Assembly: GCA_902763805.1 (NCBI GenBank)
Contig: CACWTN010000005.1
Coordinates: 62,001 to 126,000, forward strand
Source of the DNA: an uncultured bacterium
Lineage (GTDB): Bacteria > Cyanobacteriota > Vampirovibrionia > Gastranaerophilales > Gastranaerophilaceae
Reading direction: 5' to 3'
DNA: 64,000 bases
Part shown: positions 1 to 5,705 of the stretch, piece after piece
How positions within the stretch are numbered: position 1 is the stretch's first letter
How the letters are laid out: each line of letters starts with the position of its first letter
Translations under genes and position numbers: made by a program
Notes under the pieces: model-generated
The model's input: only the letters and a program-made list of their open reading frames with translations
Databases searched by the model: none
Told to the model about the DNA's origin: nothing

Positions 1-1263
1 GCTGCCATGATTGTAATGGCTTTTGATGAAAATGGTCAGGCAGCAACAACGGAAAGAAGAGTTGAAATTGCAAAAAGGGCATACAAAATCCTGACGGAAA
101 AAGCAGGAGTAAAAGACGAAGACATAATCTTTGACCTGAATATTTTCCCCGTTGCAACAGGAATAAAAGAACATAACATTAACGCCGTATCGTTTATTGA
201 ATCCGTTAAAATTATAAAATCTCTGTTTCCCAGAGTTCTGATATCGGGCGGAGTTAGCAACCTGTCCTTCTCTTTCAGAGGACTTAACCGTATAAGAGCC
301 GCACTGCACAGCGTATTTTTGTACCACGCTATCAATGCAGGAATGGATATGGGAATTGTTAACGCAGGGATGACAGAGATTTATGATGAGATAGAAGAAC
401 CACTGAGAACACTTTGCGAAAATGTTATTCTGAACAAATCAGATGATGCGGGCGAAAAACTCCTTGAATACGGCGAGGGTAATTGTAAAGAAGATAAAAA
501 CAAGAGTGACAACGCTCAGCTTGCCGAATGGAGAAACCGTTCCGTTGAAGAACGTTTGCAGCATGCTTTGATGAAGGGCGATGTCACATATCTTAAAGAT
601 GATATCACTGAGGCGCTAAAAACTTACACACCGCTTGAAGTTATTGAAAAACCTTTAATGGCAGGAATGGATAAAATCGGTATTCTTTTCGGCGAAGGCA
701 AAATGTTTCTTCCGCAGGTAGTAAAAAGCGCAAGAGTTATGAAACAGGCTGTTGATTTGATAAAAGAAGTTATGCCTAAAGCCTCGGAACAAAAAAGTAT
801 CGGAAAAATTGTCCTTGCAACTGTTAAAGGAGATGTTCACGACATCGGAAAAAATATTTTGTCGCTGATTTTAACCTGTAATAATTTTGAGGTTATTGAC
901 CTTGGAGTTATGGTAAGCTGCAAAGATATTCTTGAGGCTGCACGCAGTCATAATGCAGACTTAATAGGCTTATCGGGACTTATAACACCATCTTTGGATG
1001 AGATGATTACCGTTGCGGAACAAATGGAAAAAGAAGGGCTTAACCTTCCGGGGCTTTTAATCGGCGGAGCAACTACAAGCAAGCTCCATACGGCACTAAT
1101 GATTGCACCTAAATATCACGGCGTTGTGGTTCATACTTCAAATGCCTCCGAAGTTGCGTCTGTTGCACAAAAAATCATTAACGGTGATAATGAGTTTATA
1201 AAATCAGTAAAAGATGAGCAGGAAAGATTAAGAAAAGAATATGAGCAAAACAAACATAATTGA
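1..1263 (+). CDS. metH: Cobalamin-dependent methionine synthase, pterin- and B12-binding part (5' truncated by window)
   Basis: This transfers methyl groups from methyltetrahydrofolate to homocysteine through cobalamin. The frame is open to base 1, so the gene begins upstream. The visible part starts in the pterin-binding barrel ([38 protein letters not shown]), then has the four-helix B12 cap (about residues 180-260) and the Rossmann B12 domain with the cobalt-ligand motif GDVHDIGKN and the GGATTS loop. It stops after the B12 domain, so the AdoMet-binding reactivation domain of classical MetH is absent here. The homocysteine-binding module is in the next gene, which overlaps by 23 bp. A split MetH is therefore seen directly; how oxidised cobalamin is reactivated is unknown. 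Confidence 0.93.
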
Positions 1264-3085
1264 TAAAATGAACGAAACACCGCTTGTTTTTGATGGTGCT
1301 ATGGGAACGGTTATTTATGAAAAGGGAGTATTTATTAATGCCTGTTTTGATGAACTAAACCTCACACGTCCCGACTTAATCAAATCCATTCACAAAGAAT
1401 ATATTGATGCAGGAGCTGACGTTATTCTCACAAATACATTCGGTGCTAATAAGTTTAAGCTCGAAAAATTCGGACTCGGAAACAAAGTTTACAATATCAA
1501 TTACGCAGGCGCTAAACTTGCCGTTGAAACAGCATGTGAAAACACTTACGTTCTCGGCTGCGTGGGTCCCTGTCTGAGTAAAGGAACTTCTATTACTGTT
1601 GAAAACATTGATAAGCTTAAAGAAAACTATGAAACCCAGATAAAAGGACTTTACGACGGCGGTGTTGACGGTATTATTCTTGAAACACATCATAATCTGG
1701 AAGAAATAGACCTTGCTTCGGCAATTGTTAAAAAGTACAATCTGCCCCTTATTGCATCACTTGCCTGCCGAAAAGAAAAAGAAACCCTGAGCGGCTTAAA
1801 CATAAAAGATGCGGTAAAAATACTTGATAAAAATAATAAAATTGATGCAATAGGAATGAATTGTATTGTGGGTCCGCACGCAATGTTATCACTGTTAGAA
1901 GATGTCATTGACCTTACATCAAAGCCTTTTATTGTTGAACCAAACGCAGGACACCCGCAGAATGTTGACGGAAGAATGATTTATATGTCTACGCCTGAAT
2001 ATTTTACAACGTATTCTCAAAACTACATACGGCTTGGTGTGCGAGGTGTCGGCGGCTGCTGCGGAACAACTCCCAAACACATTGAGGAAATGGCTAAAAA
2101 TGTTAAATCCTTAACAGGAGTAAAAAAACATATTAAAATTGATAAAATTGAAGCCGCAGACGAAATTGACATAAAAGTTACACCTAAAGAAGAAAAAAGC
2201 AGATTTGCTAAAAAACTGTTTTCAGGCAAAAAAGTTACTACAATGGAGATTACTCCTCCCCGTTCGGTTGTTTTAGACTCAATACTTGATAAAGTAAAAG
2301 AGTGTAAAGATGCGGGAATAGATGCGATAAATATCCCTGACGGACCGAGAGCCAGCTCAAGAATATCATCTCTTGTAACCGCCATTATGATAGAACGGGA
2401 AATCGGAATTGAAACGATATTGCACTATTGCTGCCGCGACAGAAACCTAATCGGTATGCAATCTGATTTATTGGGCGGATTTGCCGCAGGATTAAAAAAC
2501 TATCTGATTATAACAGGCGACCCTCCGAAACTTGGTGATTACCCGGGAGCGACTGCAGTTTTTGATATTGATGCAGTCGGACTTACAAAAGTTGTTCATA
2601 ATCTTAACCGCGGGTTTGATATTGCAGGTAATATTATCAACCCTCCGACATCAATTTTAATAGGAGTGGGTGCAAATCCCTGTGCTGTTGATACTGAAAA
2701 AGAGCTTCAGCACCTCAAAAACAAATATGATGCTGGCGCTGAATACGTAATTACTCAGCCTGTGTTTGATCCGAATGCGCTTTTATCATTTTTGGAAAAA
2801 GCTCATAAAAAAGAAATAAATTTACCCGTCGTTGCCGGAATTTGGCCTCTTGTATCACTAAAAAATGCACTGTTCCTCAAAAACGAAGTTCCCGGAGTTT
2901 TTGTTCCGGATAGCGTCATCGAAAAAATGGAAAAAGCGAAAACAAAAGAAGACGGAATTAAGTACGGAGTTGAAATTGCACACGAAATAAAAGACAAAAT
3001 CAGCCAATACGTAAACGGATATCAGATAAGTGCACCGTTCGGTAAGGTTGAAATTGCACTTGAGGTCGTAAAAGAGGAAAATTAA
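1241..3085 (+). CDS. Bifunctional homocysteine S-methyltransferase / 5,10-methylenetetrahydrofolate reductase
   Basis: The N-terminal half (about residues 1-290) is a homocysteine-binding barrel ([10 protein letters not shown], then GMNCIVGP and GGCCGTTP, supplying the three zinc-ligand cysteines). The C-terminal half (about 320-610) is a flavin MTHFR barrel ([29 protein letters not shown]). The 614-aa size matches the YitJ-type fusion of Bacillus. With the upstream pterin/B12 protein it would supply the homocysteine module of methionine synthase and make the methyl-THF donor. The start overlaps the upstream gene by 23 bp, implying coupling. An in-frame ATG at 1268 ([10 protein letters not shown]) is an alternative start and lies closer to the conserved domain. 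Confidence 0.92.
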
Positions 3086-3366: not shown

Positions 3367-3452
3367 ATTTTCTCCTAAACTTCACATTATCATGTTAACA
3401 TATTTTTTAAACTTGTCTATCCCTACAAAGAATAAATTTAATATATTGGGCG

Positions 3453-3481
3453 TTGACAAAAATTTTTTTTTCGTGTTTTAT
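3453..3481 (+). promoter_or_regulatory. Promoter for the Cys leader / attenuator
   Basis: A perfect -35 TTGACA (3453-3458), a 17-bp spacer and a -10-like TTTTAT (3476-3481). The expected start point, about 7 nt further on, coincides with the ATG of the leader peptide at 3489, so the leader would be translated from a leaderless mRNA. No Shine-Dalgarno precedes that ATG. Confidence 0.6.
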
Positions 3482-3488
3482 TAAAAGT

Positions 3489-3545
3489 ATGAATACATCA
3501 TTTGTAAACAATTTAATCTGTTGCTGCTGTAAGTCTTGTTGTTAA
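3489..3545 (+). CDS. Cysteine-rich leader peptide (18 aa)
   Basis: The frame reads MNTSFVNNLICCCCKSCC then TAA. Four consecutive Cys codons (3519-3530) and two more directly before the stop (3537-3542) are the hallmark of an amino-acid attenuation leader. The stop codon lies inside the RNA segment that can pair either with the upstream Cys-codon region or with the 5' arm of the terminator. There is no Shine-Dalgarno; the promoter position predicts a leaderless start. The product itself is probably irrelevant and ribosome position is the signal. Inferred from sequence alone. Confidence 0.62.
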   Translation: MNTSFVNNLICCCCKSCC

Positions 3546-3631
3546 GAACTTACTTATAATTTTACGCGCAGATTTTAGTTAGAAATATTATAAAACGGGT
3601 TCTTAAATATGTTTTTAAGAACCCGTTTTTT
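3531..3631 (+). promoter_or_regulatory. Transcription attenuator with competing hairpins, Cys-responsive by design
   Basis: Four mutually exclusive segments are visible. Segment 1 (3531-3537, AAGTCTT) can pair imperfectly with segment 2 (3544-3551). Segment 2 (3542-3551, TTAAGAAC plus two wobbles) pairs with segment 3 (3597-3606, containing GTTCTTAA) as an antiterminator. Segment 3 (3592-3607) pairs perfectly with segment 4 (3614-3629) as the terminator. A ribosome stalled on the Cys codons would cover segment 1 and free segment 2, allowing read-through. A ribosome reaching the stop at 3543 would cover segment 2 and allow termination. This is the trp-operon logic transposed to cysteine. Confidence 0.62.
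3592..3631 (+). terminator. Intrinsic terminator of the attenuator
   Basis: A perfect 16-bp stem (3592-3607 with 3614-3629), a 6-nt loop and a T tract at 3626-3631. It sits only about 15 nt before the next start codon, so it must be conditionally read through for the 472-aa protein to be expressed from the promoter at 3453. Confidence 0.88.
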
Positions 3632-3645
3632 GAGGAGAATTACAA

Positions 3646-5064
3646 ATGAAAATAAATACTGTTAACAATACCCTGAATTTTACTTCGTCTTTAGGCGGTT
3701 TATCAAAAACGCTCTATACCCTGAGCAACAACGATATGCTGAATGCTTCATTCGTTGATGTCTTTGCAATGGATACACCAAGAACTATTGTTGAAACCAA
3801 AAACAGAGGCAAACAGGCAGGAATAGAAATGGGCTTCAGAGAATACACGGGAACCTTTATTGCAGAATTTTCCGCCGCAGTTTTCGCAATTCTTGCTTCT
3901 AAATTTATATCAAAAAAAATAAACCCGGATATAAAAGTTAACTCATCATCGTGGATTACAAATAACGGCCTGAACGTTTTTTCTGACTTGTATAACAAAT
4001 CAAACAAAACACCCGAAAGTTATGTTGAAACAACCCTGAACGCAATGTCAGGGATTGCTGGCAGGGAAACAAAAAACTTTTCTGATATTGATAAAGAAAA
4101 AGCAAAACCCGTTATTGAAAAATTAACGGACTTAATTACAAACAAAAATACGGATAAAAAAGTTTTGGAAAATATTCAGACCGATATAATAAACCTTCTG
4201 GGTGCAGATAACTCTATTACAATTAAATCAGGCAAAAACGAAGTATCCTCTAACCTTACCCATACTCTCAGAGATATTGTTGATTCGGGCAGAAATATTT
4301 TCTTCACCGAAACAAAACAAAATTCAGGCAAAATCGTTTCCAAACTGAAACACATGAACAACTTAAGAATCGGTATCGCAATACCTCTTTCAATGACACT
4401 TGCAATCACAAACCAATACTTAAACAGATATCTCACAAAACGCAGAACCGGCATAAGCAACTTTGTCGGAGAAAACGGATACGAAAACAACGTTGCTTTC
4501 AAAAACCAAAAAGGCAATGAAAAAGGACTATGGTGGAAAAAACTCCTGTCTGCCGGAATTTTCGTTTTGATGCTCACAAAAGTTATGGGAGTTAAAAAGC
4601 CTATGGATTTAATCAAAAAACTCGAATTTGACGGGCCTGCAACAAGCGGAAACGCTATTAAAACAATCTACGGAACTCTTATCCTCGGCAGAATTTTCGC
4701 CTCTAAAGATTCAACAGAACTAAGAGAAACAAACGTCAGAGATTACTTAGGGTTCCTGAACTGGCTCGTTTTAGGCGGTTTTGTAGCAAAAGGTGTCGGA
4801 CAGGCTATGGACAAAAAACAGGAAAAATTGTTTAATATATCTAAAAAGGGAACAGGTATTAATCATTGGCTAAAAGAGGTTTCTCTAAAATCTCAGAAAG
4901 AAATTATCGCACAGGGCGGGAATGTTAAAGCAAATCTGAGAAAATTAAACATAGCACAAATGTCAGGAATTGCTTACAGCGCAATAATGCTCGGGATACT
5001 CTTACCTAAATTAAACATCTGGATGACAAGAAGGAATAAATCTGCAGAGCAGACAGATAAATAA
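3646..5064 (+). CDS. Multi-pass membrane protein, lineage-specific, under a Cys attenuator
   Basis: A 472-aa protein with a GAGGAG Shine-Dalgarno. The N-terminus (MKINTVNNTLNFTSSLGG) has the short F-x-S/G style seen in orphan proteins of Gastranaerophilales (from memory). Hydrophobic segments appear near residues 70-90, 245-265, 300-320, 345-360, 375-395 and 440-460, separated by a soluble stretch rich in Asn, Lys and Thr. I recognise no catalytic motif. The protein contains no cysteine at all, which fits a product that must be made when cysteine is scarce. Function unknown; candidates are an envelope protein or transporter-like protein. Confidence 0.85.
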   Translation: MKINTVNNTLNFTSSLGGLSKTLYTLSNNDMLNASFVDVFAMDTPRTIVETKNRGKQAGIEMGFREYTGTFIAEFSAAVFAILASKFISKKINPDIKVNSSSWITNNGLNVFSDLYNKSNKTPESYVETTLNAMSGIAGRETKNFSDIDKEKAKPVIEKLTDLITNKNTDKKVLENIQTDIINLLGADNSITIKSGKNEVSSNLTHTLRDIVDSGRNIFFTETKQNSGKIVSKLKHMNNLRIGIAIPLSMTLAITNQYLNRYLTKRRTGISNFVGENGYENNVAFKNQKGNEKGLWWKKLLSAGIFVLMLTKVMGVKKPMDLIKKLEFDGPATSGNAIKTIYGTLILGRIFASKDSTELRETNVRDYLGFLNWLVLGGFVAKGVGQAMDKKQEKLFNISKKGTGINHWLKEVSLKSQKEIIAQGGNVKANLRKLNIAQMSGIAYSAIMLGILLPKLNIWMTRRNKSAEQTDK

Positions 5065-5090
5065 CTGAAAACACAGCAATGGCGGTAAAA

Positions 5091-5705
5091 ATGAAAAAGA
5101 TTATATGTTACGGTGATTCAAATACATTCGGATACAACCCGCTTGACGGTTCAAGATATGATGAAAACACAAGATGGACAGAAGTTTTGCAGAATAATCT
5201 GGGAGCGGAATATGAGGTTATAAACGAAGGAATGTGCGACAGAACAGGTTTTGTGAATAACCCTAAAGGATTTCTATTCTCAGCACCAAAACACTTTCCA
5301 AAATTTATATCAAAAGAAGAAAATTTCGATTTACTGATATTGTGGCTCGGTACAAACGATTTGCAATTTCAATATGATATAAGCATGGGGGCGGTTGAAA
5401 GAGGTCTGGAAAACTTAGTCCGCTTAGGGAATGAAAAAGCAAAAAATATCGTTATAATCCCGCCTGTCATTTTAAACGAAAACATTTTAAAAGGACCTTT
5501 TAACTTCCAGTTTAATGAAACTAGTGTTGTTAAATCAAGAAAAATCGGAAGAATATTCAGACAAATTGATAATATTTATCAATGCGGATATTTTGATATT
5601 AATAAGGTTACAACTCCATCCGACTTTGACGGTCTGCATTATGATGCAACGTCCCACAAACTAATCGGAGAAAGCCTTGCAGAGTTTATAAAACAAAACT
5701 TTTAA
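5091..5705 (+). CDS. SGNH/GDSL-family hydrolase
   Basis: The motifs are in canonical order: block I CYGDSNTFG (nucleophile Ser), block III LWLGTNDL (Gly/Asn oxyanion residues) and block V DGLHYD (catalytic Asp-x-x-His). This is an esterase/lipase fold, like bacterial arylesterases and GDSL acyl-hydrolases. There is no signal peptide, so it is probably cytoplasmic. Start choice: an ATG at 5079 is also open, but 5091 (MKKIICYGDS) sits 5 nt from GGCGG and fits the fold. It follows the membrane protein by about 26 bp, so they may be co-transcribed. Its 3' end overlaps the convergent glycosyltransferase by 4 bp. Substrate unknown. Confidence 0.82.
   Translation: MKKIICYGDSNTFGYNPLDGSRYDENTRWTEVLQNNLGAEYEVINEGMCDRTGFVNNPKGFLFSAPKHFPKFISKEENFDLLILWLGTNDLQFQYDISMGAVERGLENLVRLGNEKAKNIVIIPPVILNENILKGPFNFQFNETSVVKSRKIGRIFRQIDNIYQCGYFDINKVTTPSDFDGLHYDATSHKLIGESLAEFIKQNF

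Follow-up and report, generated by a model that had tools for sequence, protein, structure and literature searches.

Attenuators usually precede biosynthetic or synthetase genes and keep to one amino acid. The trp, his and leu attenuators work in the same way as the leaders described here, through a codon run and the alternative helices 1:2, 2:3 and 3:4; however, our leaders have no Rfam match, carry Cys or Ser codons, and stand before a target that is not biosynthetic. Closer with respect to the amino acid are the Cys-responsive, leaderless polycysteine short ORFs of mycobacteria (Canestrari et al. 2020, as reported in PMC9031893 and PMC13236596), which were first noted in PMC1262725. As far as these accounts go, the likeness lies in a short frame with a Cys run placed before a regulated gene, a frame that is plausibly leaderless here too. 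The mycobacterial frames, however, precede genes of Cys-pathway operons in a control that is described as translational in the account of PMC13236596, and no terminator hairpin was found for them (PMC1262725), while the present leaders have an intrinsic terminator, competing helices, an orphan membrane protein as the target and a sister type with Ser codons. Control of Cys-pathway genes at the level of translation is thus not matched at our locus, where a terminator is present and the target has no known family.

A second relevant case is the uORFC-8-2 motif found before cysS in Rhodobacterales, a predicted Cys-codon transcription attenuator with a terminator (PMC8632094). It differs in being alphaproteobacterial, in having two tandem Cys codons and cysS as its target, and in a structure unlike that of the present leaders. 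In Bacillus subtilis, serine shortage slows ribosomes at TCN but not at AGY codons, as studied with sinR, and Cys codons slow in parallel (PMC3862929). The sinR case resembles ours in that TCN, not AGY, reports serine shortage; however, it has no leader or terminator, whereas the TCN codons described below form part of an attenuator and occur infrequently in its target gene. The initial annotation of this DNA considered a cysteine attenuator with a leaderless leader peptide, in this lineage and before an orphan membrane protein, to be undescribed as far as known. In view of the mycobacterial polycysteine frames and the predicted cysS attenuator of Rhodobacterales this is only partly right: the lineage and the orphan target are new, and our literature search found no attenuator work for this lineage. 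New as well are the exchange of Cys for Ser codons on one scaffold and the matched residue depletion in the products.

A cysteine-codon leader, competing helices and a terminator precede a membrane-protein gene
The window, that is, the whole stretch of 64,000 nucleotides that was analysed, contains the following features at this locus:

3453-3458, plus strand: -35 element TTGACA (from sequence); TTGAC(A) is found at a fixed spacing to the leader ATG in most relatives
3476-3481, plus strand: putative -10 element TTTTAT, separated by a 17-nt spacer from the -35 element; the leader ATG lies 7 nt beyond
3489-3545, plus strand: leader ORF MNTSFVNNLICCCCKSCC, ATG at 3489 and TAA at 3543-3545; kept in relatives
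3519-3530, plus strand: regulatory codons TGT TGC TGC TGT; TCN serine codons take their place in paralogues
3529-3538, plus strand: segment 1, pairing with 3543-3553 (fold), in Cys and Ser types alike
3542-3553, plus strand: segment 2, TTAAGAACTTAC, whose partner is segment 1 or, as antiterminator, segment 3
3560-3576, plus strand: conserved element TTTTacgCGCAGATTTT, which separates segment 2 from segment 3; TGYAR/CGYAG in relatives
3592-3607, plus strand: segment 3, the 5' arm of the terminator (fold, covariation)
3614-3631, plus strand: segment 4, the 3' arm of the terminator, with the T run (fold, covariation)
3633-3637, plus strand: Shine-Dalgarno sequence AGGAG for the main gene, not included in the terminator stem (from sequence)
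3646-5064, plus strand: regulated gene, encoding a Cys-free protein of 472 aa with about 5-6 hydrophobic segments and no known family
5079-5705, plus strand: GDSL/SGNH hydrolase gene (PF13472), 15 nt downstream of the regulated gene

Both sequence and ORF translation bear out the 18-codon, Cys-rich frame of the initial annotation, with six Cys codons among the last eight. The consensus promoter scan made no call for the weak -10 element at 3476-3481; nevertheless, a TTTTAT-type -10 is kept in Cys-type relatives, and TATACT is found in their Ser-type counterparts. In most members of the family TTGAC precedes the ATG by 34-39 nt, a distance which places the start of transcription at the ATG itself, and it is plausible that the window transcript likewise begins at or adjoining the leader ATG and is leaderless. 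In others the distance is 48-49 nt, usually with AAGGA before the ATG, and this longer 5' end indicates that leaderlessness is not essential to the attenuator. As each of the two layouts occurs in both the Cys and the Ser type, leaderless translation seems to be a variant rather than a condition. The idea of a leaderless leader, therefore, fits the promoter spacing in the window and in most relatives, but not the several members with AAGGA and a longer 5' end.

Folding confirmed all three alternative hairpins proposed in the annotation. The 1:2 hairpin (3529-3538 with 3543-3553, -7.9 kcal/mol) contains the originally proposed pairing of 3531-3537 with 3544-3551; the 2:3 pairing of 3542-3551 with 3597-3606 is complete, two G-U pairs included; and the 3:4 helix (3592-3607 with 3614-3629) is a terminator with a 16-bp stem of -20.8 kcal/mol and a T run at 3626-3631. 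These three helices are mutually exclusive. The fold of 3440-3660 was better than all 200 of 200 dinucleotide shuffles (z -3.4), and the antiterminator pairing of the window exceeded that of shuffled leaders at p 0.02. An Rfam search of the window returned tRNAs only, with no amino-acid leader family at gathering score.

The arrangement is conserved and covaries in relatives
The codon run, the 1:2 hairpin, the 2:3 antiterminator and the 3:4 terminator are kept at 49 of 49 homologous Gastranaerophilales loci, and nearly all relatives retain the stem together with the T run that follows it. Close orthologues share the leader MxxSFVxNLICCCCKSCC with the same hairpins. Among relatives, the C-terminus of the leader varies in frame and length (ending, for example, in CCCCKSCC or in CCCCKFCRRTYL), while the RNA sequence AAGAACTTACTTATAATTTT stays constant, which argues for selection on the Cys codons and on the RNA and not on the peptide. 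Alignment of the upstream regions of homologues, the check proposed in the initial annotation, thus gave conserved Cys codons and stems, with covariation in both 2:3 and 3:4.

Covariation was counted for 2:3 and 3:4, while support for 1:2 comes from the folds. In 2:3, 6 of 8 pairs had changed on both sides and 95.4% of cells were paired (83.3% when shuffled); in 3:4, the corresponding values were 7 of 8 pairs and 97.1% (80.0% when shuffled). Cells changed on both sides, counted on 30 distinct rows, numbered 33 for 2:3 (9.7 in shuffles) and 47 for 3:4 (15.2 in shuffles), although these counts do not represent independent events, as the loci are related and all come from one order. Sliding the partner abolished the signal of both helices. 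Because segments in this alignment were chosen by best pairing, the independent check is a cross-pairing control, free of that choice, in which a fixed leader region was paired with every terminator arm. The values were -13.1 kcal/mol with the own arm, -13.0 with arms of the same core and -7.6 with those of other cores, and the own arm beat the mean of other cores in 49/49 leaders. In 46 of the 49 leaders the antiterminator pairing was better than in shuffled leaders at p<0.05. The cores of segments 2 and 3 are AAGAACTT/AGGTTCTT, AAGGACTT/GGGTCCTT, CGGAACTT/AAGTTCC, CGGGACTT/AAGTCCCG, CGAGACTT/AGGTCTCG and CAGGACTC/AAGTCCTG.

Between these two segments, 41 of 49 members of both types have the element TTTTG..TGYAG.TTTT (TGYAR/CGYAG), against 11.7 in shuffles. 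We can only guess that it might be an RNA polymerase pause site keeping ribosome and polymerase in step. When the Cys-leader pattern was searched across 97 genomes, true-looking matches were found solely before this protein family; 12 other Cys-run matches were due to chance and lay inside genes, and the short frames inspected there had no terminator layout.

The leader codon run has switched between cysteine and serine
Many paralogues at about 40% identity have a homologous leader with TCN serine codons in place of the Cys codons, as in MKNLHIELSNNSSSSSKFHSGLE and MKNFSINNTSSSSSSKSSAGLR, and such serine-run attenuators lie upstream of L018, L020, L065, L067, L069, L073 and other genes of the family. 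The RNA scaffold is common to both types, as is a Lys codon, AAG, that follows the run, belongs to segment 1 and is present in most members. A tree of 71 family members comprises 21 genes of the Cys type, 28 of the Ser type and 22 without a leader; 21 of the latter are outgroup paralogues. The remaining one, L017 (G051), belongs to the Ser clade and has neither a recognisable leader nor a Ser run, which looks like a loss of the attenuator.

The tree requires 3 changes of the Ser label and 2 of the Cys label on supported branches. The Cys-type genes L010-L012 are sister to the Ser-type L013 within the larger Ser side, and these genes have the segments CGGAACTT/AAGTTCC in common. The identity of the codon run has therefore switched more than once on one conserved RNA scaffold, as judged from the sequences. 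Several genomes (e.g. G005, G018, G013, G009, G030 and G057) contain both types. The initial reading of a Cys attenuator thus passes the conservation test as to its mechanism, but it was incomplete, as it described one half of a homologous Cys/Ser pair. A family in which the RNA switch is kept and the amino acid is changed amounts to a natural experiment in how attenuator specificity changes.

Products appear depleted in the residue encoded by the codon run of their own leaders
The 472-aa product of the window gene has no Cys, as had been noticed at the outset, and is the only Cys-free one among 26 window ORFs of at least 300 aa; this is unusual, as window proteins hold 1.6% Cys. All 16 of 16 proteins of Cys-type clade I have 0 Cys and the remaining Cys-type proteins 0-1, while Ser-type proteins have 1-6, i.e. 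a normal Cys content. The Ser type shows the reciprocal picture. Its proteins contain 4.7% Ser, in comparison to 7.0% in paralogues without a leader and 7.3% in the Cys clade. The difference lies in TCN codons (2.9% versus 4.7% and 5.8%, respectively), with AGY codons at 1.9%, 2.3% and 1.4%. TCN is also what the Ser leaders use, in 183 of 190 serine codons with 7 AGY (TCC 82, TCA 68, TCG 26, TCT 7, AGC 4, AGT 3); the share of TCC among Ser codons of window genes is 8%.

A matched depletion of the sensed residue is thus suggested, in a contrast that spans few independent clades; the most recent switch, L010-L012 versus L013, shows no clear difference in Cys or Ser content. We consider it probable that this orphan membrane-protein family switches its sensed amino acid between Cys and Ser, each product being depleted in the codons of its own leader (for Ser, TCN and not AGY) and hence makeable during the shortage that induces it. 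Such depletion suggests that the proteins have been selected for being made under starvation, and it provides a starting point for work on this uncharacterised family of membrane proteins from uncultured bacteria of the gut and rumen.

Proposed mechanism and alternative explanations
A leader codon run, mutually exclusive 1:2, 2:3 and 3:4 helices, an intrinsic terminator and covariation, which are the sequence hallmarks of a trp-type attenuator, are all found here. Hence, 3489-3631 is very likely a ribosome-mediated transcription attenuator sensing Cys-tRNA, and we infer stalling, termination and read-through, as well as their dependence on the supply of the amino acid, as follows. When Cys-tRNA is plentiful, the ribosome would clear the four Cys codons and, on reaching the stop codon, cover segment 2, or else leave, giving 1:2; the free segment 3 would pair with segment 4, and transcription would end at about 3631. 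When it is scarce, a ribosome stalled on 3519-3530 would cover segment 1, so that 2:3 would form, the terminator would not, and transcription would read through into 3646-5064 and the downstream GDSL hydrolase gene. The gene should thus switch on when cysteine runs short, and the Ser-type homologous genes of the same order, bearing the same device with TCN codons, when serine does.

That the arrangement is due to chance, or is an ordinary constitutive terminator that happens to follow an unrelated short ORF, has a negligible probability: Cys-run patterns do arise by chance inside genes, as in the 12 matches above, but conservation and covariation in relatives already refute it here. It is also improbable that the leader acts at the level of translation by freeing or hiding the ribosome binding site, with a hairpin that is not a terminator. 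The translation attenuation described for mycobacterial Cys genes (PMC13236596) is a precedent, yet AGGAG at 3633-3637 is outside the stem, and stem and T run are kept in nearly all relatives.

Other alternatives accept the leader but change its signal. Cys-rich leader peptides occur in copper regulation, and, judging from its sequence, CCCC-K-S-CC could bind metal; a nascent peptide sensing metal or redox state, with stalling unrelated to tRNA charging, is nonetheless very unlikely, as serine codons replace the cysteines in homologous leaders, the C-terminus shifts frame among relatives while the RNA is kept, and the residue sensed is exactly the one that the product lacks. Somewhat less remote, though still unlikely, is a loss of usable tRNA-Cys or tRNA-Ser by other means, for example through a toxin that cleaves tRNA or an inhibitor of the synthetase, in which case the membrane protein would be a protective factor and not a nutritional one. 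Such a loss would agree with one tRNA set being sensed per leader, with a target unlinked to Cys or Ser metabolism, and with the cysE and cysK-like genes of the window genome, which lead one to expect Cys synthesis. On the other hand, the protein has no consistent match to a defence or immunity family, and no toxin was seen among the neighbours. We therefore favour attenuation by the supply of charged Cys-tRNA or, in the sister type, Ser-tRNA.

The regulated protein, its neighbours and the host genome
Family members have 5-6 hydrophobic segments on average. The AlphaFold model of the 472-aa protein is helical and confident (pLDDT 84.9), and it had no match below E 0.001 in PDB and viral libraries. 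Pfam, NCBIfam, PADLOC and PDB sequence searches gave no family for the protein, with a few weak matches in one or two members. The family is present in 81 of 97 relatives, which are rumen and gut assemblies; nearly all of the 81 belong to the order, and faint matches extend to one more family within the class.

The GDSL hydrolase gene is probably cotranscribed with 3646-5064, and it lies downstream at 18 Cys-type loci. It is the sole conserved neighbour, in the Cys clade; the family gene neighbourhoods contain no conserved Cys or Ser gene, and neither target nor neighbours have a known link to the metabolism of these amino acids. In the window genome, cysK/cysE lie about 9 kb before the regulated gene, which directly follows split metH genes; this arrangement was not seen in the relatives examined. 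The split methionine synthase (window 7-3085) consists of a pterin/B12-binding part and a homocysteine S-methyltransferase fused to MTHFR.

Auxotrophy was considered as an explanation and is unsupported for the window genome: cysE and a full SerA are over the cut-offs and a cysK-like gene is just under, and simple auxotrophy therefore does not account for the gene. Full-length SerA is over the cut-off in 37 of 57 Gastranaerophilales genomes, while several genomes with Ser leaders (G003, G011, G019, G021, G023, G027, G029) lack it, with no strict rule. As to function, our guess is that the membrane protein might be needed when Cys (or Ser) is short, e.g. for uptake or in the envelope.

Some minor observations concern the family loci. 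At some Cys-type loci (L032, L036, L039, L044) a small regulator-like ORF with a Cys-rich tail (KCKSCSGGCCCSNK) is found upstream of the leader. An N-terminal motif resembling MKINNINxxxNFxG is common to the window 3646 protein and many family members, and similar motifs occur at the starts of other proteins in the family loci. Finally, the window genome also carries two tandem leader-free members of the family (L045 / G000:C5:237845-240695).
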